Shown here: positions 11,982-29,239 of the stretch, in pieces
Position numbering within the stretch: the first letter of the stretch is position 1
How the letters are laid out: each line of letters starts with the position of its first letter
From: Flavobacterium sp. KACC 22763
GTDB lineage: Bacteria > Bacteroidota > Bacteroidia > Flavobacteriales > Flavobacteriaceae
Direction: 5' to 3'
NCBI RefSeq assembly: GCF_028736155.1
Contig: NZ_CP117879.1
Span: 1,612,001 to 1,676,000 of the forward strand
Length of the DNA: 64,000 nucleotides
The notes under the pieces: model-generated
What the model was told of the DNA's origin: nothing
Database searches by the model: none
What the model saw: only the letters and a program-made list of their open reading frames with translations
Position numbers and translations under genes: made by a program

Positions 11982-14930
11982 CTATTTCAAAGCCTTAAAC
12001 AATATTTCTACCGGATGCTGTGCTTTTCGTCCTGTGCCATCAGCAATCTGATGCCTACAGCTTGTTCCAGGCGCAGCGATTAACGTAATTTCTTCTTCTG
12101 CCCTAATTGTAGGGAACAAAACCAATTCTCCAATTTTCATAGAAATATCATAATGCTCTTTTTCATAGCCAAACGAACCTGCCATACCACAACACCCACT
12201 TGGAATATTTAAAACTGTATAATTCTTTGGCAATGAAAGTATCTTTTTAAGCGGAACTAAAGACGATAAACTTTTTTGAAAACAGTGTCCATGCATTCGC
12301 ACTCTTTCTGTTTGATCTGTAAAACTATCGCATGCAATTCTTCCTGCATCCAATTCTTGTGCTAGAAATTCTTCTATTAGAAAAGTTTTACCTGCAATTC
12401 TTTTTGCTTTTTCTTTTAAATCTCCACGGCACAAATCAGGATATTCATCACGAAATGAAAGTATTGCCGAAGGTTCAATTCCGATCAAAAGACCATCATT
12501 TGGAATCGCATTCTCAAAATCTTTGATATTCTGTTCAGCAATTTCTCGCGCCTCTTTCAACATTCCTTTTGAGAGATATGTTCTTCCGCTGATTCCAATT
12601 TTAGGAACTAAAACTTTATAACCTAATCTATTTAAAAGTTTGACAGCCGTCTGTCCTATTTCGACATCATAATAATTCAGAAACTCGTCATTATACAAAT
12701 ACACATTTCCGTTTCTAAAATCACCTGTTTGACTATAGTTTTTTATCCATTTTGCAAAAGTAATTTTGTGCATTAAAGGCAATTGTCTTTCTACAGCAAA
12801 ACCAGTGCTTTTCTTAATCCAATTTCCGAGAATTCCTTTCGTAGATAAATTATATAGCCACGGAGCTGAAGCAAACAACTGATTTATTTTTGGCGTATTT
12901 CCAATCAGTTTTGATCTAAATTTTACACCGTTTTTATCATGATATTGCTGTAAAGTTTCTGCTTTCAGTTTTGCCATATCTACGTTTGAAGGGCATTCTG
13001 ACTTACAGCCTTTACAGCTTAGGCACAAATCTAAAACCTCAAGTAAGTTTTCATCATCAAACCTATTTGCTTTTGCTGAATTCGTAATGGTTTCTCTCAG
13101 CATATTGGCACGCGCTCGAGTTGTATGTTTTTCGTCTCGAGTAGCCATATAACTCGGACACATTGTACCACCACTTTTCTCTGTTTTTCTGCAGTCACCA
13201 GAACCGTTGCACATTTCTGCGGCACGAAGAATTCCGTTATGTTCCGAAAAATCAAAATAAGTTTCAGGCATCGGCGTATCTTGTCCTGCCGTGTAACGCA
13301 GACTCGTATCCATAGGAGGCGTATTCACAATTTTCCCAGGATTAAAAACACCCCAAGGATCCCAAACCTTTTTCACCTGAACAAATAACTGATAAATTTC
13401 ATCTCCCAACATTAGCGGAATAAATTCTCCTCTAAGTCTTCCGTCTCCATGTTCACCGCTCAACGAACCTTTGTATTTTTTTACCAAATGCGCAATATCG
13501 GTTGCAATAGTTCTAAAAAGTGCCGTTCCTTCATGAGTTTTTAAATCTATAATGGGGCGCAAATGCAATTCACCCGTAGCGGCATGCGCATAATGCACAC
13601 AGTTTAGATTTCTCTCTTTCAGGATTGCATTAAAATCTTCAATAAAATCAGGTAAATCATTTACATCGACCGCTGTGTCTTCAATTACGGCAACTGCTTT
13701 GGCATCACCCGGAATATTGGACAATAATCCTAATCCTGCTTTTCTTAATGCCCAAACTTTATTGGTGTCTTCACCATAAACAATTGGGAAATGATATCCA
13801 AGATTTTGCGAACGCATCAAAGCTTCCATTTCTCTGGCAATGCTGTCTATTTCTTCTTGAGAATCTCTCAAAAATTCTACTGCCAAAATAGCTTGAGGAT
13901 CGCCTTTTACAAAAAAACGATTCTTACTTTGTTCTATATTTTCTTTGGTGCATTCCAGAATATAATGGTCAATTAACTCCACACTGTCTGGATTAAACTT
14001 CAATGCTTCTATATTAGCTTTTAAAGATTCATGAATGCTTTCAAAATGAACGCAAACCAAAGCTGAATACGGTTTTAAGGCATCAACTAGATTTAGTTTG
14101 ATTGCTGTAGAAAAAAACAATGTTCCTTCGGAGCCTGCAATTAGTTTACAGAAATTGAACTTTTCATCAGCATCATTAAACGGACTGCTGTCTGCCAATA
14201 AATCTAGCGCATATCCTGTATTTCTTCTCGGAATTGATTTCTTAGGAAAATTGGCGTTAAATAAGCTTCTATTGTACTGAGACGATAATATCTCTTTAGC
14301 TTGCAGATAAATTGCTTGTTCTAGTTCGCTTACAACATTAATTCCGTTACATTTATCTACAAATTCGGCATTAATCAAAGAACCAAAAACAACTTCATTT
14401 CCATCTGCCAGAAAACCTTTTATTTCGAGTACATGTTCGCGGGTTGATCCATAAACAACAGATCTCGCTCCGCAGGCATTATTTCCAACCATTCCCCCAA
14501 TCATACAGCGATTGCTGGTAGAAGTTTCTGGTCCAAAAAAAAGCTTATAAGGTTTTAAATGAAGATTCAGTTCATCACGAATAACTCCTGGTTCTACCCA
14601 AACTGATTTTTCTTCCTGATTTACCGAAATAATTTTGGTAAACTCTTGCGAAATATCAACCACAATTCCGTTTCCAACCACTTGCCCAGCCAGTGAAGTT
14701 CCAGCCGCACGAGGAATAATACTGCTGTTGTTTTCTTTTGCAAAAGCAATAATTTTTTGAATATCTTCTTTCGATTTCGGAACAGCTACTGCCAAAGGCA
14801 TTTCTTTGTAAGCGCTTGCATCTGTTGCGTACAGCAGACGCACGGTATGATCGTAAAATAATTTGCCCTCTAATTCCTTTGCTAAACCTGCAAGTTTAGC
14901 AGAAATCTTTGGAAGGATATTATTATTCAT
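11982..14930 (-). CDS. FAD-linked oxidase / Fe-S fusion, probable D-2-hydroxyglutarate dehydrogenase
   Basis: This 982-residue protein fuses a GlcD-like FAD enzyme with a GlcF-like iron-sulfur module, the architecture of E. coli YdiJ and related D-2-hydroxyglutarate dehydrogenases. Visible parts are the PCMH FAD-binding domain (about 20-230, with PRAAGTSLAGQVVG and GGMVGNNACGARS), the FAD-oxidase C-terminal domain (SGEHGDGRLRGEF), a cysteine region near 571 (CNGSGDC), a ferredoxin motif near 634 (CLSCKGCKSECP) and a CCG motif near 911 (SGCCGMAGSFG). It would oxidise D-2-hydroxyglutarate to 2-oxoglutarate in the cytoplasm or at the inner membrane and pass electrons onward. The product made by the DUF1338/HglS enzyme at 28424-29239 is exactly this substrate, which supports the call. 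A D-lactate or other 2-hydroxyacid substrate remains possible. Confidence 0.85.
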   Translation of the reverse strand: MNNNILPKISAKLAGLAKELEGKLFYDHTVRLLYATDASAYKEMPLAVAVPKSKEDIQKIIAFAKENNSSIIPRAAGTSLAGQVVGNGIVVDISQEFTKIISVNQEEKSVWVEPGVIRDELNLHLKPYKLFFGPETSTSNRCMIGGMVGNNACGARSVVYGSTREHVLEIKGFLADGNEVVFGSLINAEFVDKCNGINVVSELEQAIYLQAKEILSSQYNRSLFNANFPKKSIPRRNTGYALDLLADSSPFNDADEKFNFCKLIAGSEGTLFFSTAIKLNLVDALKPYSALVCVHFESIHESLKANIEALKFNPDSVELIDHYILECTKENIEQSKNRFFVKGDPQAILAVEFLRDSQEEIDSIAREMEALMRSQNLGYHFPIVYGEDTNKVWALRKAGLGLLSNIPGDAKAVAVIEDTAVDVNDLPDFIEDFNAILKERNLNCVHYAHAATGELHLRPIIDLKTHEGTALFRTIATDIAHLVKKYKGSLSGEHGDGRLRGEFIPLMLGDEIYQLFVQVKKVWDPWGVFNPGKIVNTPPMDTSLRYTAGQDTPMPETYFDFSEHNGILRAAEMCNGSGDCRKTEKSGGTMCPSYMATRDEKHTTRARANMLRETITNSAKANRFDDENLLEVLDLCLSCKGCKSECPSNVDMAKLKAETLQQYHDKNGVKFRSKLIGNTPKINQLFASAPWLYNLSTKGILGNWIKKSTGFAVERQLPLMHKITFAKWIKNYSQTGDFRNGNVYLYNDEFLNYYDVEIGQTAVKLLNRLGYKVLVPKIGISGRTYLSKGMLKEAREIAEQNIKDFENAIPNDGLLIGIEPSAILSFRDEYPDLCRGDLKEKAKRIAGKTFLIEEFLAQELDAGRIACDSFTDQTERVRMHGHCFQKSLSSLVPLKKILSLPKNYTVLNIPSGCCGMAGSFGYEKEHYDISMKIGELVLFPTIRAEEEITLIAAPGTSCRHQIADGTGRKAQHPVEILFKALK

Positions 14931-14952
14931 TTTTATTTATTATTTAATAGTG

Positions 14953-15094
14953 TTTTAACACATAGAAACATAGATTTTATCTTTAAAAAAGGTAATAAAA
15001 AAGAAACTCGTTTCTTAACGCACAGCTATGTGCATTCATGCTAAGTGAAACGTCTTTCTCACAAAATAAAAAACTATGTTTCTATGTGTTAAAA
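14953..15094. repeat. Dispersed inverted-terminal repeat element, copy A
   Basis: This is a non-coding element of about 140 bases with inverted ends, aacacatagaaacatag (from 14957) and ctatgtttctatgtgtt (ending 15090). Its interior shares 'agaaact.gtttct' and 'gctatgtgcatt..taagtgaaacg' blocks with copies B (19717-19864) and C (55990-56132). It sits in the gap between two genes of the hydroxylysine locus. Confidence 0.85.
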
Positions 15095-15099
15095 AAAAT

Positions 15100-17397
15100 C
15101 TATAATTCGCTTAATGCAATGTCTAATAACTCAACCATTTCCTCAGCATTTTGTTTATTAAATGGCATTGGCGGTTTTATTTTTAAAACATTATGAAGAG
15201 GTCCGTCAGTACTTAATAGATAACCTTTGGCTTTCAGTTTTTCGACTACAATATCTATTTCAGGAATAGCTGGTTCCATGGTAGTTCTATCTTTTACCAT
15301 TTCTGCTCCAATAAATAATCCGTGTCCTCGAACATCACTGATAATAGGATATTTAGCCATTAGACCTTTTAGTCCGTTCATCAAATAATTACCCGTTTCC
15401 AAAGCATGCTGCTGCATTTCTTCCTCCTGAATTACCTCTAAAACAGCCAATCCGGTAGCCATAGAAACAGGATTGCCTCCAAAAGTATTGAAGTACTCCA
15501 AACCATTGTTGAAAACTTCTGCAATCTCCTCGGTTACTATTACAGCTGCAAGCGGATGTCCGTTACCAATTGGTTTTCCTAAGACAACAATATCTGGAAC
15601 AACATTTTGCAATTCGAAGCCCCAGAAATGATCTCCAATTCTTCCAAAACCAACCTGAACTTCATCTGCAATGCAGACTCCTCCCGCTGCACGAACGTAG
15701 TCGTAAACGGTTTTCAAATAATTTTCTGGCAACGGAATCTGACCTCCAACTCCCAATAAAGTTTCACAGATGAAAACTGCTGGCGCTTTATCTTCTTTCT
15801 TTAAGTTTTCGATAATTCGCTGTACATCTTCAGCATATTTTTCTCCTGCTGCTGCATCTCCATATTTATAAGGACCACGATACAAATCTGGATTAATTGC
15901 TTTATGAATCCACGGCATTTGGCCAGAACCTCCCTTGCTGTCAAATTTATACGGACTCATTTCCATTGCTACGGTCGATGTCCCGTGATACGCATGATCG
16001 AGTACGATAATATCTCTTTGTTTGGTAAAATGACGGCTCATACGAATAGCCAAATCATTGGCCTCGCTTCCAGAGTTTACAAAATAGCAGACACTTAGTT
16101 TTTCGGGTAAAGTTGCTGTTAGTTTTTCTGCATAATCGGTTATAGCATCATTTAAATATCTGGTATTTGTATTTAAAGTCGCTATTTGATGCTGCATTTT
16201 TCTAACCACAACTGGATGGCAATGCCCCACATGCGATGGATTATTTACGCAATCAACAAAAGTTCTTCCTTTGTCATCGTATAAATATTGTAAAGCTCCT
16301 TTTACGATTTTAAGTTTGTCTTTGTAGCCAATGCTTAAATTTCTTCCTATTTTCTTTTTTCTAACTTCAAGAAGTTCAGAATAATCATTAGTATTGATTA
16401 CTCCGTCAAAACCGCATGCTTTTCTAAACGCATCTTGTGCTTTTATAGGGTTTATTTTTATCAGTTTGTACAACAAATCCCAAGCTGGTTTTTCGGTCAC
16501 AAAATGATGTTCGTTGTTACTATCCAATGATGCATTATAAGCAGATTGTGTCACACTAATACAAAGTCTTCCTGCAATGAGATAATACAATAAATCTAAT
16601 TCTTGTTCGGTAAGTGCATACGAATTATGGTATCCTTCAACAATTTTTGCTGCTACAGCCAACGGATCTTTTTCATCAAGCATCGCATAGACACAAGCAA
16701 TCGCTAGATTGTTGATTAAAGCCGTATACACCATATCACCAAAATCAATTAGGCCACTTATACGATTGTCTTTTACCAAAACATTATAATCGTTGGCATC
16801 ATTATGAATATAAGCATGTCTTAGTCGGTGCAACTCTGGTAATACTTCTGTGTCAAACTGCAATAAAAAATAACCCGCTATACGTCTTCTTTCGTGATTT
16901 AGAATATACTTTAAATTATCGCCTGCTTCGCTTGCACGGCTAATATCCCAAGTATAATTGCGATGCATTGCTGGATGAGAGAAATCAGCCAAAGCGTTAT
17001 CCATATTGCCTAAAAATGAACCCAAGTTGTAATGCAGTTGACTGTTTTTGTTCTTTTCATCTACCCAAAAAGTGCCTTCCAGAAAGTTTAAAATTCGAAT
17101 ATAATAGGTTTTTGAATCTGTCACAATCTGGGTCAGCTCCTCCCCTTTTGCATTCAGACAGAAATGCTGAAAACAATCAGAAATATCACTTTTGGCAAGA
17201 TGTCTCATGATGGCAGCCTGCGCTTCTAAAAATGGAAATGAATGGCTCTCATTTGATACTTTTAGAATGTACTTTTCATTCTTATCATCAGATAAAAGAA
17301 AATTCAATTCATCATATCCATTTAATGCTTTTACGATTACATTTAAACCGTAATGTTCTTTTACTAAATCCTGAATAACTGTTTCTGAAAAAATCAT
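15100..17397 (-). CDS. Fused hydroxylysine-kinase-like / PLP phospho-lyase (class III aminotransferase fold)
   Basis: This 765-residue bifunctional protein has two domains. Residues 1 to about 335 form an APH-type kinase with HNDANDYN (198-205, catalytic Asp200) and the metal-binding DFGD (218-221), as in hydroxylysine kinase (AGPHD1) and choline/ethanolamine kinases. Residues of about 345-765 form a class III aminotransferase-fold enzyme very like AGXT2L1/AGXT2L2 phospho-lyases: [43 protein letters not shown] lysine K608 in [20 protein letters not shown] and [11 protein letters not shown]. The expected reactions are phosphorylation of 5-hydroxylysine, then PLP-dependent loss of phosphate and ammonia to give 2-aminoadipate semialdehyde. 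Ethanolamine is the alternative substrate; co-location with an aminoadipate-semialdehyde dehydrogenase favours hydroxylysine. Cytoplasmic, with no signal peptide. Confidence 0.85.
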
Positions 17398-17431
17398 TGT
17401 ATTCTATTAAAATGTTTCATATTTTCTTTTA

Positions 17432-17544
17432 GCCACGAATTACACCAATTTACACGAATTTTTTCTTTTTAAAGATTATCCTGCAAGGTTTTAAAAACCT
17501 TGTAGGAAGATTTATAATTCGTGTAAATTGGTGTAATTCGTGGC
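17432..17544. repeat. Palindromic intergenic element with 29-base inverted ends
   Basis: The left arm at 17432-17460 (gccacgaattacaccaattt...) is repeated in perfect inversion at 17516-17544. Inside is a second near-palindrome (17479-17507, tcctgcaaggttt / aaaccttgtagga, one mismatch). The whole unit can fold into one long hairpin between the kinase/phospho-lyase gene and the GH42 gene. It is MITE- or REP-like and carries no gene. Confidence 0.85.
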
Positions 17545-17550
17545 AAATTT

Positions 17551-19686
17551 TTATTTCCAAATAACAGCCTGAGCAGGTTCTAATGGATTTTTGCCCATTA
17601 ATATTTTACTTCCTGCGGGAATTGGCAGATTTACAGTTTCATTAGTATAATTTACACCAACAAAGAAACCATCACGCCATTCTACATAAACGCCTTTTGG
17701 TAAATCTTCAATAGCAACTTTTGCACGTTCGTATACCGTTCTTACTACTTGTCTCTCTAGATTCCCATCTTTACTTTCGGCTCCAATATACGTAACGGTT
17801 CCTTTTCCAAGTTTTCTGGTAATCGCAGCCGCTTTGCCTTTGTAAAACTGATCGGCATACGAAGCCAAAACTTCAGTTCCTTGTTTCGGATTTAAAACAT
17901 CTGCCCAAACATTCCATTTATAGGTATTGTTTCCAGCAGTTATGGTTCCGTTTACATCTTCAACCAACATATCAAAAAACTCAACGTCTGCTCCGATTAA
18001 AGGTACAATTGGTCCGCTCCAATTTGCTTCGAAGAAATGACCGTTTTTATCTTTCTGCCCTGTACGGCACGAAAGAATTAAATTTCCACCATTTTCAACA
18101 TATTTTGTCCATTTCTCTACCAGTTTTTGATCAACTAACTGATACGCTGGAGCAACAATAAACGGATAAGCCGAAAAATCGCTTTCTTCTGTAATAAAAT
18201 CCATTGGCGCACCAGTTGATTTTACTGCTGAAGTATAGGTATTTCTATGTCTCCAAGTACTCCAGAATTCTGTTTGTTTTTGGTTTTCCAAATCCCACAG
18301 ATTCTCGTGACTCCATAAAAATCCTGTCTTTCTTTTCGCAATTTCCTGCGGAATTACCGCTTTTGGATTGTATTCTTTACGAAGCAGTTTCATGTCTTCA
18401 ATAGATTGTACAAACTCTTTTCCTCCTGTTGTCAAAGTGACTCCGTCTGTTCCCACAATTCCGTCATGATACATTTCGCTGCTTCCTAGCGGATGTCTAT
18501 ATCTGTACGTACAAGTAAAAGAACAGCCTCCACCGAAAGCCTGAGAAATCCACATGTGAACTGTTCCTGGCAATAACTGCGGATTAATGCTTGCCCAGTT
18601 TACTTGTCCAGGCTGCATTTCCATTACGCCCGTAACGCCATTTATAGATCTATAATAATCATTGGCTTCCGAAATTTTATTAGGGTGTCCCATTCTGAAA
18701 TTTTGTCCTCCTAATTGATTTCTTCCGCTTACAGGATACATGGTATAGGTTGCAAAATCCATTTTATCTGTTTTCCTTGGATCAGCACCATAAACCACAT
18801 TGGTATAATTTGTCGTAATCCATTGTTTTGGATCGATATGCTTTCTAAGTATTTCAGCTTGCAAATTCAAATACTCAGCTTGAGAATCTGCTGTGTATCT
18901 TTTGAAATCTAATATAGCATGCGGACTTAGTTTGTCTTCAAAATAAATCTCTGCATTTGGAATCGCAATCTGTTCAAAATTATTGTATCTGATGCTCCAG
19001 AAACTCGCTACCCACTCCGCATTTAATTTTTCGATTGTCCCGTATTTCGCTTTAAGCCATTTCTGAAATCCTTTTTGTGCTGATGGACTAAAATCGTCTG
19101 GCGCTCCTGGTTCGTTATCAACCTGCCAGCCAATTACATTTTTGTTATTACCGTATCTTTTTCCTAATTCAGTAACAATTTTAGCAACAAATTCTCTATA
19201 TTTTTCATTAGACACAGACTGGTTGGCTCTGTTACCGTGTTCTCTTCTTCGTCCGCTTGCATCAACCAGATAGATTTCAGGATACTTTTCTCCCATCCAT
19301 GCTGGCGGAGTTGGCGTTGGCGTGCACATGATTACTTTCAAACCTTGTTTTTCGGCAATAGCCAATGCGTCGTCCAGCCATTTAAAATCATATTTTCCTT
19401 CTTCAGGCTCCAAAAAAGTCCATGCAAATTCAGCAAAATGCGTAAACTCAAAACCTAGTTTTTTAATGTTTTTTAAATCGCGCTCCCATTGTTCTCTTGG
19501 CCATTGCTCTGGATAATAATATACTCCAATCTGCATTAAATCAGGCTTTGAAAAAAATCGCTGCGGATCTTTATTCTCTGTAGTTGTACTTTTCTTGCTT
19601 TGGGCAAAAACTGGTGTTGAATAGCAGCCTGCAATAAGCAATCCTGCCGTTATTATTTTTGTGAAAGATATATTGTGGTTAAACAT
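17551..19686 (-). CDS. GH42 beta-galactosidase, exported
   Basis: This 711-residue GH42 enzyme releases beta-linked galactose. The N-terminus has a hydrophobic signal with a lipobox-like LIAGC (Cys21) and also an FAQ signal-peptidase site, so it is exported and may be a lipoprotein. The (beta/alpha)8 catalytic domain begins MQIGVYYYPEQWPREQWERDL (residues 51 onward). The acid/base is Glu192 in GWQVDNEPG and the nucleophile is Glu356 in VMEMQPG, followed by the GH42 feature QVNWA. The trimer-forming and C-terminal beta-domains follow to residue 711. It is encoded between an alpha-glucosidase-like gene and the hydroxylysine kinase/phospho-lyase gene, so galactosyl-hydroxylysine is a plausible natural substrate, although arabinogalactan-type substrates cannot be excluded. 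Confidence 0.9.
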   Translation of the reverse strand: MFNHNISFTKIITAGLLIAGCYSTPVFAQSKKSTTTENKDPQRFFSKPDLMQIGVYYYPEQWPREQWERDLKNIKKLGFEFTHFAEFAWTFLEPEEGKYDFKWLDDALAIAEKQGLKVIMCTPTPTPPAWMGEKYPEIYLVDASGRRREHGNRANQSVSNEKYREFVAKIVTELGKRYGNNKNVIGWQVDNEPGAPDDFSPSAQKGFQKWLKAKYGTIEKLNAEWVASFWSIRYNNFEQIAIPNAEIYFEDKLSPHAILDFKRYTADSQAEYLNLQAEILRKHIDPKQWITTNYTNVVYGADPRKTDKMDFATYTMYPVSGRNQLGGQNFRMGHPNKISEANDYYRSINGVTGVMEMQPGQVNWASINPQLLPGTVHMWISQAFGGGCSFTCTYRYRHPLGSSEMYHDGIVGTDGVTLTTGGKEFVQSIEDMKLLRKEYNPKAVIPQEIAKRKTGFLWSHENLWDLENQKQTEFWSTWRHRNTYTSAVKSTGAPMDFITEESDFSAYPFIVAPAYQLVDQKLVEKWTKYVENGGNLILSCRTGQKDKNGHFFEANWSGPIVPLIGADVEFFDMLVEDVNGTITAGNNTYKWNVWADVLNPKQGTEVLASYADQFYKGKAAAITRKLGKGTVTYIGAESKDGNLERQVVRTVYERAKVAIEDLPKGVYVEWRDGFFVGVNYTNETVNLPIPAGSKILMGKNPLEPAQAVIWK

Positions 19687-19879: not shown

Positions 19880-21886
19880 TTATTTATCTTCTAAAAGTAG
19901 CATTAAATAATGTGAAGCCGACCAGCTGAAGTTAAAAGCTTCTAATCCTTTACCAGTTACAGGCTGATAGTTTTCTCTTATGGTAGTTCCTTTATCTAAA
20001 GCACCTTCAGCATTATGCATCAGTTTATGCGCTAGTTCATTTGCTTCTTTTGCATACCCGTATTTTTCCAATCCGTTAATACCAAAATAACTTTGGTCAA
20101 GCCAAATTGGTCCTCTCCAATATCCGTTATCAGGTTTAAACTTTGGGTGATTTGCAGCTAATGTTGGCAAAGGCACAAAAGTGTTCAGACTAGCTGGATC
20201 AATCATATTGTTTTTTGCTGATTTGGCTTGTTCTGCAGTAGCAACTTCTGCCCAAATCGGACAATATCCTTCGCATCCCATTGCTTTTATCATTGTTTTG
20301 CCATCAATTGTCGTATCATAAAACCAGCCTGTCGCTTCATCCCAAAATTGCTTCTGAATTTTCAGTTTTAATGCATCACTTTCGTCTTTCCATTTTTTTG
20401 CTTCATCAGTCAATTTTAAAACTGTTGCCATTTTGCTCAAATAATTTTTCTCTGCAAATAAAAATGAATTTAAATCAACGCTTTCCTGATCTAACGAATA
20501 CGCTTTTTCGCCATTTTTCAAGATTTTACTATCATCAAAACGAACGGCATTATCCATTCCGCTTTCCCATTTTGCTGCAATTACAGTTCCATCTGTCGAA
20601 CCAAATTCACATAATCCGTCTTGGTCGTGATCACGCTCTTTGTACCACCAGTTGTGATATAATGTAAGCTTTGGATAAAACTCTTTTATGAAATCAGCAT
20701 CTTTCGTTTTTTCATAAATCTTCCAGATTGCCCAAGCCGCAAGCGGTGCTTTTGTATTTCTATAATTGTTTTCTTCAAGAAGATTATTTCTGTAAATGCA
20801 ATCTGGAATAAAACCATTTGGATCTTGATAATCGAACAAAGCACGCATTTGATTTTTGGCTAATTCGGTATCATAATTAGCTACTGCGACGGCATGTTTC
20901 CAGCTGTCCCAAGCCCAAAAACCGTGAAACCATTCGTAATTGTAACTCGGAAAAAGGCCTCCATGTTTTAATCCTTCTGCTGCAATTCTTGTATTGTTTT
21001 GTAAAGTCAATACCAATTTTGCCGCAAAATCTGAATAGATCTCATCTTTATAAATGCTTTTCTTTTTGGCAATAAGGTTTGCCAACAGTTTTTCTTTTTC
21101 TTTTTGTGTGTTGTTTAACAGTGTAGTAAATACCGTTTTTTGTATCGTTTCATTTTCTGTTTTCCAAGAATACTGTGGAAAAATAAAACTTTGAGAAACT
21201 ATAATTTCTTTGGTTTCATTTGGTTTTAAAACCAATTTTTCTGTCTGTGCTTTGAATCCTTGTTTCGTAATTTCAATTCCATGATTTGATTTTAAAAACT
21301 GAATATATCCTATAGCAGTGCTTTTTGCAGAAACAATTTTTAAAGTGTTTTTTTCATTAGATAATTGCAAATCATCTAAAAAAAGAGACGCATTATACGA
21401 AGGAAAAATAGTGATTGATCTTGTGCTTTTGTTTGTAATACTTGTTTTTTGCAAAGCCGAATGGCCTGATAAAAATACCAATTGCTGTTTTACTTCTAAT
21501 TTGTCATTTTTAAACTGCTGTTCTAAATGGCTGTTGAAACTGTTTTGCGAAACCAATGAACTTTTCCAGTTGATTACTTCCTGTTTGTTTTCGTCTTTTA
21601 GTTCAAGCGAAACAAATGATGGACTTAACCATACTCCGTTTTGTTCTGTCATCAAAAAAGGTCCTGAAAATCCTGCTTGAACATTTGAACCTTCTAAAAA
21701 TCCAAATGCAAACCAAGCTCCTTTATCAGAGAACGCTAATGGTTTTCTGTCGGTTGCGTTTGCTGGATTTCCTTTATAATTGATGCTATTTTTAGCAGAT
21801 TCTAAATTTGGAAAGCTTTTTTGAGACCAACCTGATTGTATTAGAAAGAGGGATGAAAGAATAAAAAGTATTTTCTTTTTGCTCAT
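19880..21886 (-). CDS. GH63/GH37-like exo-alpha-glucosidase, secreted
   Basis: This 668-residue protein has a signal peptide (ILFILSSLFLIQSGWSQ). An N-terminal beta-sandwich (about 25-265) precedes an (alpha/alpha)6 catalytic domain of the MGH1/GH63/trehalase type: YEWFHGFWAWDSWKHAVAVA with probable acid Asp327, DYQDPNGFIPDCIY, WWYKERDHDQDGLCEFGSTDG, YWRGPIWLDQSYFGI and TTIRENYQPVTGKG with probable base Glu638. GH63 contains the alpha-1,2-glucosidase that trims N-glycans and bacterial alpha-glucosidases such as YgjK. The collagen disaccharide carries an alpha-1,2-linked terminal glucose, so this gene fits the first trimming step. Linkage specificity is inferred from context, not from the sequence. 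Confidence 0.82.
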   Translation of the reverse strand: MSKKKILFILSSLFLIQSGWSQKSFPNLESAKNSINYKGNPANATDRKPLAFSDKGAWFAFGFLEGSNVQAGFSGPFLMTEQNGVWLSPSFVSLELKDENKQEVINWKSSLVSQNSFNSHLEQQFKNDKLEVKQQLVFLSGHSALQKTSITNKSTRSITIFPSYNASLFLDDLQLSNEKNTLKIVSAKSTAIGYIQFLKSNHGIEITKQGFKAQTEKLVLKPNETKEIIVSQSFIFPQYSWKTENETIQKTVFTTLLNNTQKEKEKLLANLIAKKKSIYKDEIYSDFAAKLVLTLQNNTRIAAEGLKHGGLFPSYNYEWFHGFWAWDSWKHAVAVANYDTELAKNQMRALFDYQDPNGFIPDCIYRNNLLEENNYRNTKAPLAAWAIWKIYEKTKDADFIKEFYPKLTLYHNWWYKERDHDQDGLCEFGSTDGTVIAAKWESGMDNAVRFDDSKILKNGEKAYSLDQESVDLNSFLFAEKNYLSKMATVLKLTDEAKKWKDESDALKLKIQKQFWDEATGWFYDTTIDGKTMIKAMGCEGYCPIWAEVATAEQAKSAKNNMIDPASLNTFVPLPTLAANHPKFKPDNGYWRGPIWLDQSYFGINGLEKYGYAKEANELAHKLMHNAEGALDKGTTIRENYQPVTGKGLEAFNFSWSASHYLMLLLEDK

Positions 21887-21999: not shown

Positions 22000-22024
22000 A
22001 AATATTTAAATCATTTTGAGAGAA

Positions 22025-23524
22025 TTAATTCGTTTGCAATTCTGTCAATGGAATTGGGTAAAAGTTATTCTTTGCTGCGTCAAAACCTGTGCGTCCAACA
22101 GCATCAAGAGCTTCTTTTGTTTTGCCCCAACGGCGTAAATCGTAAAAACGGAAATTTTCAAGAGGGAATTCTAAAATTCTTTCGTGTTCGATTTGCGCTT
22201 TTACTTCAGCACCACTTGTTCCTGTCATTGCTGGCATATCTGCTCTAGCGCGAACTTTGTTAATGTACGGAATTGCTTCTCCTGGGCGTCCTAATTCATT
22301 TAGAGCTTCAGCCTGCATCAATAATACATTTGAGTAACGCATTAAAGGAATATTGATTGCTGTAAATTCCTGATCCATTTTTTCCTGTGTGCTTGGAATA
22401 AACTTGCGGTAAACTGGTTTGTCTGTATCTCCAAATTTATCATCGTAAGTTGTTCCTAATACCAATGGATTATCAGCATCATTAAAATATGGATCTTTGA
22501 AGAAAATCGTGCTGTATAAACGTGAATCGTAGTTTCCTGTTGTCGCAATTTTTCCTTCTTTTTTGAATTCATTTACAAGCATTGGGCTTGGAAGAATTTC
22601 ATCCCATCCACCAAGCTCAGCTGCTGCCATCCAGTAGTGAAGTGCATTGCGGTAGAACGCTCCGTTTGCTGTAGTTTCTGAAAACTGAAGTTCAAAAATC
22701 GATTCTTTAGTGTTTTTCATTGTTCCGTCAAACATAGAAACATAATCTTTAACCAGCTCGTATCCTTGCACTTTGCTAAATGCGGTAAGCGCTTCATTCA
22801 AGAAAGCTTGTTTTTGAGCTGTTTCTTCATAAGATCTTGTCAAATACGCAAATCCTAAATAACTGTTCGCAGCGCCGCTTGTTGCACGTCCTGTTTTATC
22901 TGCAGATTGTTTTGCAGGCAAAATAGCTGCTACAGCTTTAAATTCGCTCGTAATAAAATCCCAAGCTTCTGCACGACTTGACAACGGAATGTTTAAATCA
23001 CTTTCTTTTATAACATATTTATTTCTGATATAAATTTTATCCCAGTTCAAAATCAATTTCATGTGATAATAGGCACGTAAAAAACGAGCTTCTGCTTCGA
23101 TTTGCTTACGGTCTTCATCGCTTATTTTTGATGCAGGAACCTGCGGCAATTTATCAATAACCTGATTGGCATTACTAATTCCTCTATAGTTAATTCTCCA
23201 ATAACTAGTAAACTGGCTGTTTCCGTTTGTGTAAGTAAAAGTAGAAAGTTCAACCCAGTTTTGGTAGTTTAATGCATCGCTTCCTAATTCGTTTATGTCT
23301 TCGCGATACGCTTCAACTGGCCATTTTACTTCGGCGAAAGCCCATTCATCAACAGCGCATTCTAATTGTGAGTAAGTTGACGCCAAAGCCGATTCGGCAT
23401 CAGCTTTATTCCTCCAAAAATTATCTGATGTAAGTTCATCTGGAGATTGTTTATCCAAGTAGTCATCACAGCTTGCAAAAGTGAATAAACCTATAGCGGA
23501 TACTATTAAAAATATCTTTTTCAT
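22025..23524 (-). CDS. SusD/RagB-family nutrient-binding lipoprotein (locus 2)
   Basis: This 499-residue lipoprotein has a signal ending LFTFASC and the acidic surface-export-like sequence DDYLDK right after the cysteine. SusD landmarks are ARFLRAYYHMKLI, the LLMQAEALNELG helix, the HERILEFPLENFRFYDLRRW motif and the C-terminal NFYPIPLTEL. It is encoded 22 bases after its SusC partner on the minus strand and would bind the substrate of that transporter on the cell surface. Substrate is unknown from sequence; the operon suggests a glycosylated peptide or hydroxylysine glycoside. Confidence 0.95.
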   Translation of the reverse strand: MKKIFLIVSAIGLFTFASCDDYLDKQSPDELTSDNFWRNKADAESALASTYSQLECAVDEWAFAEVKWPVEAYREDINELGSDALNYQNWVELSTFTYTNGNSQFTSYWRINYRGISNANQVIDKLPQVPASKISDEDRKQIEAEARFLRAYYHMKLILNWDKIYIRNKYVIKESDLNIPLSSRAEAWDFITSEFKAVAAILPAKQSADKTGRATSGAANSYLGFAYLTRSYEETAQKQAFLNEALTAFSKVQGYELVKDYVSMFDGTMKNTKESIFELQFSETTANGAFYRNALHYWMAAAELGGWDEILPSPMLVNEFKKEGKIATTGNYDSRLYSTIFFKDPYFNDADNPLVLGTTYDDKFGDTDKPVYRKFIPSTQEKMDQEFTAINIPLMRYSNVLLMQAEALNELGRPGEAIPYINKVRARADMPAMTGTSGAEVKAQIEHERILEFPLENFRFYDLRRWGKTKEALDAVGRTGFDAAKNNFYPIPLTELQTN

Positions 23525-23546
23525 GATAATGTCTTATTAAATAGAA

Positions 23547-26500
23547 TTAAAATATATACTGAACTCCAGAAACAAATGATCTTGTAAATGGATAAACAAA
23601 ACGGTCAACACCTGTGTTAACTACCGAATTACGCGAGAATTCTGGATCAATTCCTGAATAATTAGTGATAGTAAACAAGTTTTCGGCACTTACATAAAAT
23701 CTAAGTTTGTCGATTTTTGCTTTACCTAACATTTTGTTTGGAATAGTATAGCCAAATTGCAATTGGCGCATTCTGATAAAATCTCCGCTTTCAAGAAAAC
23801 GGTCTGATTCACGGCTGTTTCCGTTTGGATCTTGCAATACTGCACGCGGAATATTACTGTGGTTTTCTGGTGTCCATGAGTTTAATGTAGAAGCTAACAT
23901 GTTAGTTCCAGCATTCATAGACTCATAGAAATATCTGTTTCCGTTATATAATTTATTTCCCCATCCGCTTCCAATCAATGCAGAAAAATCAAATCCTTTA
24001 TAACTTGCACCTAAACTAAGGTTTACTTCCAATTTTGGTAATCCTGTTCCAGCATAAGCTTTATCATTTTCATCTATAACACCATCTCCATTCAAGTCTT
24101 TAAAGCGAATATCTCCAGGCTGCGCGTTTGGCTGTAATAAAACACCATTTTTATTGTGAGCCGCCACTTCTTCAGCTGATTGGAAAATACCATCTGTTTT
24201 GTATAAATAGAATCCGCTTATTGGGCTTCCTACACGAGCTTGTGTCGGAAAGTGTTCATCTCCGTATTTTAATCCTTCTCCATAAATAGTTTGTCCGTCA
24301 TTAGCCAATTCTTCTACTTTGTTTTTAAGCGTCGTAAGATTCAATCCTGCGTTGTATTTAAACTCATTAACCTGATCTCGGTAATTTACTTCAAACTCAA
24401 ATCCTCTATTGCTAATTTTACCTACGTTAAGAACGGGATCATCGATTCCGGCAGATGGAGCTAGTTTTTTTGTAATCAATAAATTGTCTGTTACATTATA
24501 GTAGTAGTTCATAGATCCGCTAATTTTTCCATTCAAAAGCGTATAATCTAAACCGATATTTTTAGAATCTGTAGTTTCCCATTGCAGATTTCTATTTTCT
24601 AATGCTGTTGCAATACTACCTGGCCAAGGATTGCTTCCTACACCCTGAACATAACCGTTTCCTAAAGAATTACCTGTTTTGATCAGCGTATTTGCAGAAT
24701 AATATCCTAAAGCCGCTTCGTTACCCAATTGTCCCCAGCTTGCTCGCAATTTTAAAGTAGAAAGAATCATATCTTTAGGGAAGAAATCTTCTTGTTCGAT
24801 TTTCCATCCCAAAGCAATAGATGGGAAAGTTCCCCAACGGCTATCTTCTCCAAACTTAGAAGAACCATCTTTTCTAACTGTCACCTGAAGCAGGTAACGA
24901 TCATTGTAAGAGTAGTTTAACCTGCTAAAGAAAGATACTCTGTTGTATTCAAATTTTGAGCCGTCAGCAGAATAGGTTCCTCCTCTTCCAGCACCAATTG
25001 TTTCAAAACCAGGATCAAGAAATCCTGATGGACGATCGATAGAAACCAACTGTCCATTTTCTACAGTATAATCTGTTGTTTTACCTTCAACACTAACCTG
25101 ATTCCAGTTTGATGCCTGACTGTTAAAAGTATTACCCAACATTAAACCAAAAACATGTTTTCCGAAAGTTTTATCAATAGTAATAATATTGTCTAAGATT
25201 TGCTCATTCCAAGTTGTTCTCAACTCTGTCTGCATTGGATAAAGATGCACCTCTTTTGGATTTGCAATATATGGAGGGAAATGTGCAGTCTGTTGGTTGT
25301 TTTTTACACGGTAAGAATAAGCCAGTTTGTATTTTAACCAAGGCGCAATATTTGCTGTTGCCGAAATATTTGCCGTGATATCTTGTCCGATATCATTGCT
25401 TTTTCTAAAATGCTCTTCAGCAACTGGGTTTGTTCCTGCTGGCAAACCATTTTTATTTGCTAATCCGTAACCGTATTCCTCTGTATCGTCATAAACAGGA
25501 ACCAAAGGAGCCATGGTATATACTTCTTTCAACTGAAAATTTGGCAATGCATTTTGCGTTCCCATGTAGGCCATTTTTCCATCAATATCAAAAATTGATT
25601 TTTTGAAACTGATTCTAGCGCTACCTGTTTGCTGTCCAAATTCATTATCAATTACAATACCTTTTTGCTTTACGTAATTTCCGTATAGTGCAAATTTAAA
25701 ATCTCCCTGTCTTCCCTGAATTCCTAAACCATAATTTTGTGTAAAACCAGAACGGAAAACTTCGTCCTGCCAATCTGTATTTACATCTGATGGTGCTGTA
25801 ATATAAGCTGGAAGAGGTTTTGGTGAAGTTGCATATTTATTATACTCATCATACATTCTTTTATTGACCGTACGATAACCATCAGCATCTAACATATCTA
25901 ATGTTTTTGATGGATTTGTAATGCTCAAAAAAGAACTGAAATCTACTTTTACGCCTTCTTTCTGTCCATTTTTAGTCGTTACGATAATTACACCATTTGC
26001 AGCAACAGATCCGTAAATTGCAGCTGCGGCACCATCTTTAAGAACCTCCATAGATTCTATATTGGTTGGATTTATAGTGTTAATAGAACCTTGAAAACCG
26101 TCAATGATATAAAGTGGTTCTGTTGCTCCAAAGGTATTTACTCCACGAATTTTCACACTTACAGAAGCACCTGCAACACCGCCGCTTTTTTGCACATTGA
26201 CCCCAGCAACTAAGCCCTGAAGTGCTTCAGATGGACTTGTTGTAGCACGAGTTTCAAGGCTTTCCTTTTTAACTGTAGAAATAGCTCCCGTAACATTACT
26301 CTTCTTTTGAGAACCATAACCAATAATAACTACTTCATTCAATTTATTGGTTTCTTCCTGCATAGATACATTAAGTTCTGAACGATTATTTATACTCTCA
26401 CTTATGGAAATAAATCCTACATAAGAAAAAACAATAATCGGATTCTCCAACGTCGATGGATACACTAAGGTATAGTTTCCATCAATATCTGTCCCAGCAT

Positions 26501-26669
26501 TGTATTTAGAATCTTTGATCGAAATACTTACGCCAGGCAGCGTATTATTCTTGTCATCCGTCACTTTTCCTGAAATTGTTTTTTGTGCTTGTGCAAAACT
26601 GATGTTTGGCAGCCACAAGCATAACAGCAGAGGAATAAAGTAAATTACCCTAATTAGTTTTTTGTTCAT
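23547..26669 (-). CDS. SusC/RagA-family TonB-dependent transporter (locus 2)
   Basis: This 1040-residue outer-membrane transporter has a signal peptide (residues 1-26, ending ISFAQ), a carboxypeptidase-like domain (SGKVTDDKNNTLPGVSISI, GTDIDGNYTL), the NEVVIIGYGSQKKSNVTGAI segment, a plug (VSVKIRGVNTFG, LYIIDGFQGS, VLKDGAAAAIYGSVAANGVI) and a full barrel to RSFVSGVQYIF. It forms a pair with the SusD gene 22 bases downstream. The upstream gap of 163 bases to the ALDH7 gene carries an inverted repeat. It is diverged from the SusC at 2922, so the two loci should import different ligands. Confidence 0.96.
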   Translation of the reverse strand: MNKKLIRVIYFIPLLLCLWLPNISFAQAQKTISGKVTDDKNNTLPGVSISIKDSKYNAGTDIDGNYTLVYPSTLENPIIVFSYVGFISISESINNRSELNVSMQEETNKLNEVVIIGYGSQKKSNVTGAISTVKKESLETRATTSPSEALQGLVAGVNVQKSGGVAGASVSVKIRGVNTFGATEPLYIIDGFQGSINTINPTNIESMEVLKDGAAAAIYGSVAANGVIIVTTKNGQKEGVKVDFSSFLSITNPSKTLDMLDADGYRTVNKRMYDEYNKYATSPKPLPAYITAPSDVNTDWQDEVFRSGFTQNYGLGIQGRQGDFKFALYGNYVKQKGIVIDNEFGQQTGSARISFKKSIFDIDGKMAYMGTQNALPNFQLKEVYTMAPLVPVYDDTEEYGYGLANKNGLPAGTNPVAEEHFRKSNDIGQDITANISATANIAPWLKYKLAYSYRVKNNQQTAHFPPYIANPKEVHLYPMQTELRTTWNEQILDNIITIDKTFGKHVFGLMLGNTFNSQASNWNQVSVEGKTTDYTVENGQLVSIDRPSGFLDPGFETIGAGRGGTYSADGSKFEYNRVSFFSRLNYSYNDRYLLQVTVRKDGSSKFGEDSRWGTFPSIALGWKIEQEDFFPKDMILSTLKLRASWGQLGNEAALGYYSANTLIKTGNSLGNGYVQGVGSNPWPGSIATALENRNLQWETTDSKNIGLDYTLLNGKISGSMNYYYNVTDNLLITKKLAPSAGIDDPVLNVGKISNRGFEFEVNYRDQVNEFKYNAGLNLTTLKNKVEELANDGQTIYGEGLKYGDEHFPTQARVGSPISGFYLYKTDGIFQSAEEVAAHNKNGVLLQPNAQPGDIRFKDLNGDGVIDENDKAYAGTGLPKLEVNLSLGASYKGFDFSALIGSGWGNKLYNGNRYFYESMNAGTNMLASTLNSWTPENHSNIPRAVLQDPNGNSRESDRFLESGDFIRMRQLQFGYTIPNKMLGKAKIDKLRFYVSAENLFTITNYSGIDPEFSRNSVVNTGVDRFVYPFTRSFVSGVQYIF

Positions 26670-26743
26670 CTTGGTAATGGTTTAAGTTAGTAATTTTTTA
26701 GGTTTTTAATTTTTTAGTTTTTGTATTGCATGTGTATACATCT

Positions 26744-26777
26744 TGTTCGATAATGCCTTAAAAAACATTATCAAACA
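26744..26777. promoter_or_regulatory. Inverted repeat upstream of SusC (locus 2)
   Basis: A 12-base stem with one mismatch (tgttcgataatg at 26744-26755, cattatcaaaca at 26766-26777) lies between the ALDH7 stop and the SusC start. There is no T-run on the minus strand after it, so an operator is as likely as an attenuator. No clear TAnnTTTG box was found near it. Confidence 0.4.
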
Positions 26778-26832
26778 AAATGCAGTATTCTCGTTGATAT
26801 TTTTTGTTAAGCTTTAGCTGGCTCTAAAGAGT

Positions 26833-28386
26833 TTACAAGTCAAATTTTATTCCTTGTGCTAACGGCAAACTTGTAGTATAATTGATTGTATTGGTTTGCC
26901 TTCTCATGTAAATTTTCCAGGCATCAGATCCAGATTCCCGGCCACCACCAGTTTCTTTTTCACCACCAAAAGCACCTCCAATTTCAGCACCAGAGGTTCC
27001 TATGTTTACATTTGCAATACCACAATCAGAACCTGTAACAGACAGGAATAATTCGGCTTCTCTTAAATTATTTGTCATAATTGCAGAAGAAAGTCCTTGC
27101 ATTACACCATTTTGCATCTCAATTGCCGCTTCAACAGTTCCCGAATATTTTATTAAGTATAAGACAGGGGCAAAAGTTTCGTGCTGTACAATCTCAAAAG
27201 AATTATCAGCCTCTGCAATTGCTGGTTTTACATAGCAGCCACTTTCATATCCATCACCAGAAAGTACTCCGCCATCAACCAAAATTTTGCCACCTTGCTC
27301 TACCACTTTTTTCAAAGCATCATTATACAATTCAACTGCCTGCTTGTCGATAAGAGGACCTACATGATTTTTTTCGTCTAAAGGATTCCCGATGCGCAAT
27401 TGTCCGTAAGCAGAAACCAGAGCTTCTTTAACTTTTTCGTAAATGCTTTCATGAATGATTAAACGGCGTGTAGAAGTACATCTTTGTCCTGCCGTACCAA
27501 CAGCACCAAAAACAGCACCGATAACGGTCATCTTAATATCTGCATCTGGCGTCACGATAATGGCGTTGTTGCCACCTAATTCTAGTAACGATTTACCAAA
27601 ACGTCCTGCAACTACCTGCGCTACAATTTTACCCATTCGCGTAGAACCAGTAGCCGAGATTAACGGAATTCGTTTATCGTTGGTTAGCAATTCACCAATT
27701 TTATAATCTCCTGTAATCAAGCACGAAATTCCTTCAGGCAAATTGTTTTCTTTTATAACCTCTGCCACAATATTCTGGCAAGCAACTGCACAAAGAGGTG
27801 TTTTTTCTGAAGGTTTCCAAACACAGACATCGCCACAAATCCAAGCTAGAGCGGTATTCCAAGCCCAAACAGCCACTGGAAAATTAAATGCCGAAATAAT
27901 CCCGACAACTCCAAGAGAATGGTACTGCTCATACATTCTATGTCCTGGCCTTTCTGAATGCATTGTCAATCCGTGAAGCTGGCGCGAAAGTCCAACTGCA
28001 AAATCACAGATATCAATCATTTCCTGAACTTCACCATAACCTTCCTGAAGTGATTTTCCCATTTCATAAGAAACCAGTTTCCCTAAAGCTTCTTTATTTT
28101 TGCGCAATTTTTCTCCAAACTGACGCACGATTTCTCCACGCTGAGGCGCTGGCATTAATCTAAACTGTTTAAAAGCATCAGTAGCCGATTCCATTACTTT
28201 TTCATAATCAGCTGTACTTGATGTTTTAACCTTTCCGATTAATTTTCCATCTACGGGCGAGTAGCTTTCTAAAATTTCCCCATCAGAAAAATTATTAAGC
28301 CCTGTCCAAGTTCCATTATTAACTTCTTTTATATTTAGCTGCTCTAAAGCTTCTTTTATACCAAACTGCAATTCTGTATTCGTCAT
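26833..28386 (-). CDS. ALDH7-type aldehyde dehydrogenase (2-aminoadipate semialdehyde dehydrogenase)
   Basis: This 517-residue NAD(P)-dependent aldehyde dehydrogenase of the ALDH7A1/antiquitin class would oxidise 2-aminoadipate 6-semialdehyde to 2-aminoadipate. Motifs are SAFNFPVAVWAWNTALAW, WKPSEKTPL, ATGSTRMGK, LLELGGNNAIIV (general-base Glu near 268), GQRCTSTRRLI (catalytic Cys near 302) and ETFAPVLYLIKY. Cytoplasmic, with no signal. It starts 37 bases after the DUF1338 gene, so the two are likely co-transcribed. In lysine-degrading organisms this enzyme feeds the 2-oxoadipate branch; here the semialdehyde can come from the kinase/phospho-lyase encoded further along the same strand. Confidence 0.92.
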   Translation of the reverse strand: MTNTELQFGIKEALEQLNIKEVNNGTWTGLNNFSDGEILESYSPVDGKLIGKVKTSSTADYEKVMESATDAFKQFRLMPAPQRGEIVRQFGEKLRKNKEALGKLVSYEMGKSLQEGYGEVQEMIDICDFAVGLSRQLHGLTMHSERPGHRMYEQYHSLGVVGIISAFNFPVAVWAWNTALAWICGDVCVWKPSEKTPLCAVACQNIVAEVIKENNLPEGISCLITGDYKIGELLTNDKRIPLISATGSTRMGKIVAQVVAGRFGKSLLELGGNNAIIVTPDADIKMTVIGAVFGAVGTAGQRCTSTRRLIIHESIYEKVKEALVSAYGQLRIGNPLDEKNHVGPLIDKQAVELYNDALKKVVEQGGKILVDGGVLSGDGYESGCYVKPAIAEADNSFEIVQHETFAPVLYLIKYSGTVEAAIEMQNGVMQGLSSAIMTNNLREAELFLSVTGSDCGIANVNIGTSGAEIGGAFGGEKETGGGRESGSDAWKIYMRRQTNTINYTTSLPLAQGIKFDL

Positions 28387-28423
28387 TGTGACTTTTAATT
28401 GTTCTTTTTATACTAAATGAATA

Positions 28424-29239
28424 TTATAACGTTTTTTGAAGCTTTACATCGGTGCTTTCAAATATTTTATCTGCTGATGAAGCCACAAAACCTTGATATA
28501 ATTCTCCGTTTGCCATCGGATAACGCAATGCAAATTCATAATAACATGACGGCACTTTTAACGTTCCTTCTTCGAAATCAATATCGTATAAATCTGCCAA
28601 TGTGCTTGATTGCTCCAAAAGCTGTTCTGGAGTTCCTTTAATTTTTCCTCCAGATGCATTCAGTTCCCATCCGCTAGATTCTAAGAAATTATTCAATTCT
28701 TCTAAAGTTTTAAATCCTTTTAAAGCATTGGTATTGATTGTAAAGTGATTGGCTCTAAAACCATACACATACATCCAAGCCGCATATTCAGACTCTTCTA
28801 ATAATGATTTGTAAACCGCCTGTGAATTTCCGTTCCAAACAGATCCGCTTAAAACCAATTCTGGATTATTGAACGCATTCTGATCACAGCTGTCTAGTAA
28901 ATTAGCCACTGTAGCCTGTAATTCTGCAGAACATTTTTCTAATTCCAATTCAGAAATAAAAATTCTTGGTGCGTCTTTATCAGTTGCATGCTCGTAATGT
29001 TTTGCAAAAAGCTTTTTAGTTTCAAAATGATACTCTCCTTTTGCCTCGTAACCAACATTCAGAAACGGCTTTTCTAAAACTTGGATATTCACACGCTTAT
29101 CATTGAAAGTACGAATTGCGATATGATCATTTTTAATTTCTTCTCCCTTGTCTTCCAGGAGTTCATGAATTTTTAATGCCGACGGAGTAATTTCAACATA
29201 TTGCTCCCACAGCTTTGTAAGTAGTTGATCTTTATTCAT
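28424..29239 (-). CDS. DUF1338 Fe(II) enzyme, 2-oxoadipate dioxygenase/decarboxylase (HglS-like)
   Basis: This 271-residue DUF1338 protein matches the family that in Pseudomonas putida (HglS) converts 2-oxoadipate with O2 to D-2-hydroxyglutarate and CO2. The expected iron ligands and substrate arginine are in place: His39 and Arg43 in NDHIAIRTF, His165 in FRANHFTINT and Glu235 in SCYYEFALRYPM. It needs no 2-oxoglutarate co-substrate. It is the first gene of the minus-strand run, divergent from an Lrp/AsnC regulator, and its product is the substrate of the FAD/Fe-S dehydrogenase at 11982-14930. Length is somewhat shorter than the Pseudomonas enzyme, as is usual in Bacteroidota members. Confidence 0.88.
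   Translation of the reverse strand: MNKDQLLTKLWEQYVEITPSALKIHELLEDKGEEIKNDHIAIRTFNDKRVNIQVLEKPFLNVGYEAKGEYHFETKKLFAKHYEHATDKDAPRIFISELELEKCSAELQATVANLLDSCDQNAFNNPELVLSGSVWNGNSQAVYKSLLEESEYAAWMYVYGFRANHFTINTNALKGFKTLEELNNFLESSGWELNASGGKIKGTPEQLLEQSSTLADLYDIDFEEGTLKVPSCYYEFALRYPMANGELYQGFVASSADKIFESTDVKLQKTL

Follow-up and report, generated by a model that had tools for sequence, protein, structure and literature searches.

Hydroxylysine (Hyl) is degraded in mammals by a kinase, then by an ammonio-phospho-lyase that yields aminoadipate semialdehyde, and then by ALDH7; the hydroxylysine kinase and the 5-phosphohydroxy-L-lysine phospho-lyase were reportedly described by Veiga-da-Cunha in 2012. 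In bacteria, hydroxyproline catabolism relies on an epimerase, a D-oxidase, a deaminase and a semialdehyde dehydrogenase; older biochemical work is said to have followed bacterial hydroxylysine catabolism through another route, and E. coli YgjK, an enzyme of glycoside hydrolase (GH) family 63, is said to have been crystallised in complex with Glc(alpha1-2)Gal. Here we analyse a window of 64,000 nucleotides from the genome of Flavobacterium sp. KACC 22763 (G000:C1:1612001-1676000; the source genome, G000, is a single contig of 5.56 Mb, and G and L numbers denote genomes and fetched loci as labelled in the present analysis). We consider it likely that a cluster of eight genes in this window, one of which encodes a kinase/lyase fusion protein (FUS), serves the catabolism of the glycosylated hydroxylysine of collagen, whose Glc(alpha1-2)Gal would be removed before hydroxylysine is converted to 2-oxoglutarate.

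Two further systems are described in the literature. Human PGGHG, a GH65 enzyme, takes the glucose off Glc(alpha1-2)Gal-Hyl of collagen, according to passages of PMC8626586 and PMC11012932, and in passages of PMC7286885 the HglS enzyme of the Pseudomonas lysine route converts 2-oxoadipate to D-2-hydroxyglutarate, its His-His-Glu metal triad and substrate Arg being tied to 2-oxoadipate. The window locus resembles each of these systems in part. It has the order kinase, lyase, ALDH7 in common with the mammalian pathway, but here the first two are joined in a single bacterial protein, whose gene stands with genes for sugar removal and import, and the predicted exit is via HglS. The step proposed for HglS is like that of Pseudomonas, whereas the route would be fed by hydroxylysine and the window enzyme belongs to the short DUF1338 group. 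The reaction of PGGHG is proposed here for a protein of another GH family, a YgjK-like GH63 enzyme; it shares the family and the catalytic Asp and Glu motifs with E. coli YgjK, yet falls below the YgjK equivalog cut-off. SusCD and glycosidases occur together as in polysaccharide utilisation loci (PULs), but the predicted target is a glyco-amino acid, of which the amino acid would be consumed too. Hydroxyproline catabolism, whose genes lie beside or near the cluster in several genomes, handles hydroxyproline and not hydroxylysine or sugars. The first-pass annotation of this DNA was aware of no described locus leading from sugar to amino acid, and our literature search, for which subscription papers were mostly beyond reach, likewise turned up no bacterial locus for hydroxylysine-linked sugars and no bacterial hydroxylysine kinase/phospho-lyase operon.

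Results

Gene content of the cluster

The cluster consists of eight open reading frames (ORFs) on the minus strand (11982-29239), all without internal stop codons and separated by gaps of 22 to 193 bases. Coordinates, ORFs and Pfam and NCBIfam families agree with the enzyme types first assigned to these genes, which are listed below in order of transcription, followed by two features of the divergent promoter side.

28424..29239, minus strand: HglS/DUF1338 protein of the short group (PF07063, HGLS), predicted to convert 2-oxoadipate to D-2-hydroxyglutarate
26833..28386, minus strand: ALDH7, 2-aminoadipate semialdehyde / piperideine-6-carboxylate dehydrogenase (NF050084)
23547..26669, minus strand: SusC-type TonB-dependent outer-membrane transporter (TIGR04056, 821.9 bits, cut-off 368.25)
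22025..23524, minus strand: SusD-type surface lipoprotein (PF07980, PF14322; lipoprotein-like N-terminus by eye)
19880..21886, minus strand: YgjK-like GH63 alpha-glucosidase (PF22422, PF03200, PF21152), predicted to remove alpha-1,2-linked glucose
17551..19686, minus strand: GH42 beta-galactosidase (PF02449, PF08532), predicted to remove beta-galactose from hydroxylysine
15100..17397, minus strand: FUS (PF01636 + PF00202), predicted hydroxylysine kinase / phosphohydroxylysine phospho-lyase
11982..14930, minus strand: YdiJ-like FAD/Fe-S D-2-hydroxyacid dehydrogenase (PF02913, PF01565, Fer4), predicted to convert D-2-hydroxyglutarate to 2-oxoglutarate
29430..29900, plus strand: divergent Lrp/AsnC regulator (PF01037, PF13412)
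29290..29306, no strand: perfect inverted repeat of 8 nt between the divergent promoters, where 27 short inverted repeats occur in all

FUS carries an N-terminal APH kinase domain (PF01636, residues 26-260) and a class-III pyridoxal-phosphate domain (PF00202, residues 362-760), the architecture of a hydroxylysine kinase joined to a phospho-lyase; its substrate is predicted from gene context, and it scores 974 bits on its best model, NF004799, below the cut-off of 1128. Its nearest named records are from Flavobacterium (98% in Flavobacterium sp. LHD-85). ALDH7 scores 830.7 bits on the curated L-piperidine-6-carboxylate dehydrogenase model NF050084 (cut-off 730), which places it in that family, and 538 bits against the PDB entry 'alpha-aminoadipic semialdehyde dehydrogenase', the next ALDH group standing at about 219; it is a second copy beside a housekeeping one at G000:C1:4509081-4510619. 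The HglS-like protein reaches 107.5 bits on PF07063 (cut-off 25) and matched no NCBIfam model. With 293.8 bits to 3LHO, the nearest solved structure, and 113.3 to 6w1k ('Hydroxyglutarate synthase'), it belongs by similarity to the short DUF1338 group near 3LHO, less near 6w1k. Its residues H39, H165 and E235 (metal triad) and R43 (substrate Arg) align with those given in the relevant part of PMC7286885 and are conserved in 14 of 14 aligned proteins; by family score, triad and Arg it is a predicted 2-oxoadipate dioxygenase-decarboxylase. The dehydrogenase is like YdiJ in architecture, and we do not claim it for YdiJ proper, its score on the YdiJ model NF049975 being 574 bits for a cut-off of 1350.

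Both glycosidases are members of their families. The GH63 protein exceeds the cut-offs of PF03200 (55.1 bits, cut-off 22.4), PF22422 (228.8, cut-off 27) and PF21152 (41.4, cut-off 27); it matches E. coli YgjK with about 249 bits and scores 363.5 on the YgjK equivalog NF007525 (cut-off 625), which leaves it outside that equivalog. Its catalytic Asp and Glu, D445 and E638, are invariant in 20 homologues: E638 lies within a segment strongly aligned with YgjK, and D445 within a WESG motif that is present too in YgjK, but in a weak, separate alignment segment. The GH42 protein scores 382.4 bits on PF02449 and 174.6 on PF08532, and up to 338 against solved beta-galactosidases. SusC adjoins SusD and the glycosidases are on the same strand, as in a SusCD PUL. 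Signal-like N-termini were seen by eye on GH63, GH42, SusC and SusD and on none of the other four cluster proteins; because of this distribution, sugar removal is probably periplasmic and amino-acid breakdown cytosolic.

From these assignments we propose the following route. SusC/SusD would bring Glc(alpha1-2)Gal(beta1-O)Hyl, or else short glycopeptides, in through the outer membrane; with no peptidase of its own, the cassette must be supplied with short peptides or with the glyco-amino acid in free form. Once these are in the periplasm, glucose would be taken off by the YgjK-like GH63 enzyme and galactose by GH42, and hydroxylysine would reach the cytosol via a carrier encoded outside the cluster. 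There the kinase half of FUS would phosphorylate hydroxylysine and the lyase half would split off phosphate and ammonia, leaving 2-aminoadipate semialdehyde, which ALDH7 would oxidise to 2-aminoadipate. A transaminase encoded elsewhere would then produce 2-oxoadipate, the HglS-like enzyme D-2-hydroxyglutarate, and the FAD/Fe-S dehydrogenase 2-oxoglutarate. What the analysis shows directly is which genes are present, how far they are conserved, and that they co-occur and are linked; the individual reactions, the substrate and the compartments are predictions.

The divergent Lrp/AsnC product possibly controls the cluster, its gene also adjoining HglS in five other loci (L040, L041, L048, L073, L101), and the inverted repeat is a possible, weak candidate for an operator, the repeat count having no shuffle control behind it.

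Conservation of the cluster in relatives

The first-pass annotation had made its case depend on the gene set being kept together in relatives, and comparative genomics found it kept together well beyond chance neighbours. Firstly, among 131 Flavobacterium genomes, FUS was matched in 19 and an orthologue (at least 66% identity) was present in 18, G301 (42% identity, lyase part only) not being counted. GH63 and a GH42 orthologue (at least 80%) each occur in 16 genomes; the two sets are identical and all are FUS-positive (hereafter cassette genomes). Since GH42 proteins of 45-52% identity turn up in additional genomes and also as a second copy, the GH42-GH63 match holds by orthologue, not by family. 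HglS is found in 17 genomes, namely in 14 of the 16 cassette genomes and three of the 115 others. ALDH7 is present in 121, and the 10 genomes with two complete copies all lie within the cassette genomes. Fisher values, which ignore relatedness, are 1e-18 for GH63 with FUS, 3e-14 for HglS and 3e-11 for the second ALDH7.

Secondly, we collected 78 FUS loci from named records by a genome scan with FUS as sole query, retaining the best 80 of 149 matches (set A); these are close relatives, mostly Flavobacterium, and were read with flanks of 10 kb on each side. GH63 is present in 56 (54 under stricter identity limits, the best segments of two being below 40%), GH42 in 43, GH2 in 17, ALDH7 in 36, the dehydrogenase in 33 and HglS of either type in 16. 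In most Flavobacterium loci HglS lies about 11-12 kb from FUS, as in the window, and its low count there arises because the 10-kb limit hides it. An in-line upstream SusC/SusD pair occurs in 48 loci, a looser count of 53 each including pairs of another cluster. The intact pair is missing between ALDH7 and GH63 in the five loci named above, so that FUS and the glycosidases can be retained in its absence.

The composition of these loci varies at two points. All 56 GH63 loci also encode a beta-galactosidase, GH42 in 43 and GH2 in 13; the GH2 form, confirmed by Pfam in two loci and by similarity in the remainder, replaces GH42 in Pedobacter, Chitinophaga and relatives. HglS in the GH2-bearing lineages is of a longer form, which in L098 reaches 213 bits to 6w1k. 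Two positions (GH42/GH2; short/long HglS) are thus occupied by proteins that differ but share a predicted role. Co-occurrence of the fusion gene with GH42 and GH63 was borne out in the genus, and the association recurs with other parts in Pedobacter, in Chitinophaga and in other Flavobacteriaceae. Separately, GH20 (L115, L054), GH130 (L115) and GH36 (L048) genes were seen near FUS, which suggests further host-glycan or galactoside enzymes.

Thirdly, one locus joins three of the proposed activities. In Sphingobacteriales bacterium 50-39 (L093:9989-13225, plus strand) an APH kinase, a class-III domain and HGLS form a single ORF of 1078 residues. This chain suggests that what the lyase makes is passed on toward 2-oxoadipate.

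HglS and the dehydrogenase are also found without FUS. They occur together with a 631-637-residue protein, SerB/SerA-like in the sole case tested (L120), in G317, G391 and G409, and the dehydrogenase, this protein, HglS and Lrp are grouped with no FUS adjoining in L120, L121, L122 and L123. Because of the grouping in the three genomes, this part of the route appears to be a module that existed before; the four loci suggest a separate 2-hydroxyglutarate module.

FUS homologues in the wider Flavobacteriaceae

FUS was matched in 111 of 299 Flavobacteriaceae genomes: two clade A (G000, G251), 36 clade B, 69 clade C and four fragments or broken genes (G062, G293, G079, G298) outside B and C. A rapid phylogeny of the lyase part, built from the window, 30 loci of set A chosen for spread (one too-short row dropped), the 36 B and the 69 C sequences, separated B from A plus C with full support and also supported A (95) and C (99). 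One Aminicenantes sequence is basal in clade A, and L113, fetched with set A and counted within the 78, falls in clade B and has no marker. Clade B homologues are two-domain proteins. Clade C proteins (L147-L215) have about 1010 residues, against 765 in the window; their extra middle part, putatively a PRK06148-type M23 peptidase domain, has no evident part to play in the use of hydroxylysine.

Loci of 20 kb were examined for clades B and C. Under strict identity limits, which were set after the data had been inspected, at least one marker is present in 49 of 69 clade C loci (52 under loose limits), with GH2 in 25, GH63 in 23, both in 21 and any hydroxyproline gene in 25. The loose count could admit a lone HypO or a weak ALDH match as a marker, and in it the queries for HypE (24) and T3Hyp (24) each pick up members of the other's family; the strict counts are 21 and 10. 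Hydroxyproline, peptidase, GH and lysine-pathway markers were found in none of the 36 clade B loci, which gave one SusC match. Clade B had been considered as a control of unrelated function and was dropped, 31 of its 36 genomes encoding HypE; its proteins may be unlinked hydroxylysine enzymes.

Across the 299 genomes, GH63 occurs in 31, of which 30 have FUS (three with clade B only). It lies within 16 kb of FUS in 24 of the 31, and two of the seven others have it 7-9 kb from HypE. HypE is present in 89 of the 111 FUS-positive and 63 of the 188 FUS-negative genomes.

Association with hydroxyproline and X-Pro peptidase genes

Hydroxyproline genes are present in seven of the 78 FUS loci, six of which also hold glycosidase genes. 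In L064 and L065 GH63-GH42-FUS is surrounded by the 4-hydroxyproline genes, by a pair of the 3-hydroxyproline type and by X-Pro peptidases. The L064 region (F. laiguense) encodes an S37 peptidase, a Delta1-pyrroline-2-carboxylate reductase (379, cut-off 322) and a Pro_racemase whose nearest family is 3-hydroxyproline dehydratase (372, below the cut-off of 540), together with GH63, GH42 and FUS; it also holds M24 prolidase-like, DPPIV-like and aminopeptidase P-like proteins, a DAO-family oxidase, another Pro_racemase, an ALDH and a member of the DHDPS family. L067 and L069 hold part of this marker set, and in L066 the 4-hydroxyproline genes stand at a further distance of about 9-12 kb. An ALDH/DHDPS pair lies near FUS in L080 and L111 (Chitinophagaceae), and L082 (Sediminibacterium) has genes for an M43 peptidase and an AraC-like protein close by.

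In the source genome itself, a 4-hydroxyproline epimerase (591 bits, cut-off 376) is encoded 39 kb from FUS, in a same-strand run (G000:C1:1573001-1590827) of epimerase, DHDPS-family protein, ALDH, oxidase, aminopeptidase, DPPIV, SusCD and M43 peptidase. The M43 peptidase has a secretion tail, its gene being cut by the edge of the fetched locus (L127, G000:C1:1573001-1592000). The cluster probably works alongside this run of hydroxyproline and X-Pro peptidase genes. Of the 16 cassette genomes 13 have a Pro_racemase, against nine of the 115 other Flavobacterium genomes (Fisher 8e-10); it lies within 40 kb of FUS in eight of the 13 and on another contig or further away in five. Peptidase M9 collagenase was matched in none of the 131 genomes, but control genomes likewise gave no match. 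The link to collagen, formed by the FUS loci that hold hydroxyproline genes and by the source genome's own hydroxyproline run, is new here.

Neighbouring genes in the window

Convergent to the cluster, a plus-strand group (2922-11419) encodes a second SusC/SusD pair and 495- and 669-residue proteins without clear Pfam family. Family and PDB comparison of the 669-residue protein matched no clear family or solved relative; 11 of the 78 loci hold a homologue and one adjoins FUS in L074, and a role in the pathway is possible, unproven. Further on (39773-63828, plus strand) are genes of a contractile injection system: phage sheath, baseplate, tape-measure (CIS_TMP) and eCIS_core with a nuclease domain.

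Alternative explanations

Several observations weigh against a collagen-derived glycosylated hydroxylysine as the substrate. Within the cluster, there is neither a dedicated 2-aminoadipate aminotransferase gene nor a known inner-membrane carrier gene, the closest solved relative of the C-terminal part of FUS is 6tor, 'Ethanolamine-phosphate phospho-lyase' (479 bits), and the specificity of GH63 for Glc(alpha1-2)Gal is inferred from context. Among the Flavobacterium genomes, which are related, so that the Fisher values overstate independence, G343 and G414 have FUS but not the glycosidases; HglS is missing in two cassette genomes (G302, G402), lies away from FUS in four (G315, G328, G334, G354) and has one internal TAA in each of G354 and G355. 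No GH63, GH42 or GH2 lies within the flanks of 18 of the 78 loci, some on short contigs, and 15 lack any glycosidase, lysine-pathway or hydroxyproline marker there. Clade C has HglS and ALDH7 nearby in only two of 69 loci each and the dehydrogenase in none, and hydroxyproline and glycosidase genes come together in only seven. In clade B, HypE is encoded in those 31 genomes although the loci hold no marker except one SusC, so that co-occurrence at the level of the genome does not amount to linkage. Our confidence is slightly lowered because clade C rarely has HglS or ALDH7 nearby.

The alternative that survives best, though we regard it as unlikely, is that hydroxylysine is burned as proposed, but that the glycosidases have as their substrate a different galactoside or alpha-glucoside in place of the collagen disaccharide, or Gal-Hyl of other origin. 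The GH63/YgjK-like and GH42 families are broad, FUS stands without them in G343, G414 and the 18 loci just mentioned, and beta-galactosyl-5-hydroxylysine is a solute of Thermococcus litoralis, as stated in part of PMC5488096. This is countered by the presence of a beta-galactosidase gene in every GH63-bearing locus of the 78, and by glycosidases standing alongside hydroxyproline genes in six of these loci and in the seven of clade C.

A much less probable reading is that FUS is an ethanolamine kinase/phosphoethanolamine phospho-lyase and the remainder a separate lysine-degradation module. It would account for 6tor as best solved relative, and no phosphohydroxylysine lyase is among the 60 matches listed, of 189, for the lyase half. 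The kinase-lyase-HGLS fusion of L093 argues against it, as does the recurrence of ALDH7, HglS and hydroxyproline neighbours of FUS; moreover, acetaldehyde, the product from ethanolamine, would presumably need no HglS.

Least probable of all is an ordinary galactoside PUL inserted by chance among lysine-degradation genes, for although HglS, Lrp and the dehydrogenase are grouped without FUS in G317, G391 and G409, the glycosidase-FUS association has been put together anew from other parts in loci of Pedobacter, of Chitinophaga and of other Flavobacteriaceae.

Discussion

The use of collagen's glycosylated hydroxylysine, a prediction from sequence, is well supported by comparative genomics and by an independent collagen link. 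That the locus would import its substrate, remove both sugars and burn the amino acid, as the first-pass annotation proposed, gains support from the co-occurrence of the genes, the swapped parts, the L093 fusion, the second ALDH7 and the hydroxyproline and X-Pro peptidase neighbours.

It seems reasonably probable that Bacteroidota have a pathway dedicated to converting Glc-Gal-Hyl to 2-oxoglutarate and assembled repeatedly, which in certain lineages would be one module of a larger 'collagen island'. If so, this island would also consume 4-hydroxyproline, 3-hydroxyproline and X-Pro peptides, and bacteria would possess a GH63-type collagen-glycan alpha-glucosidase and a fused hydroxylysine kinase/phospho-lyase. 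The locus offers a nearly complete, testable gene set, with candidate enzymes for the removal of the collagen disaccharide, and a likely function for many kinase/aminotransferase-fold fusions, FUS being matched in more than a third of the Flavobacteriaceae genomes (111 of 299). It may also be a marker of collagen- or gelatin-feeding microbes.

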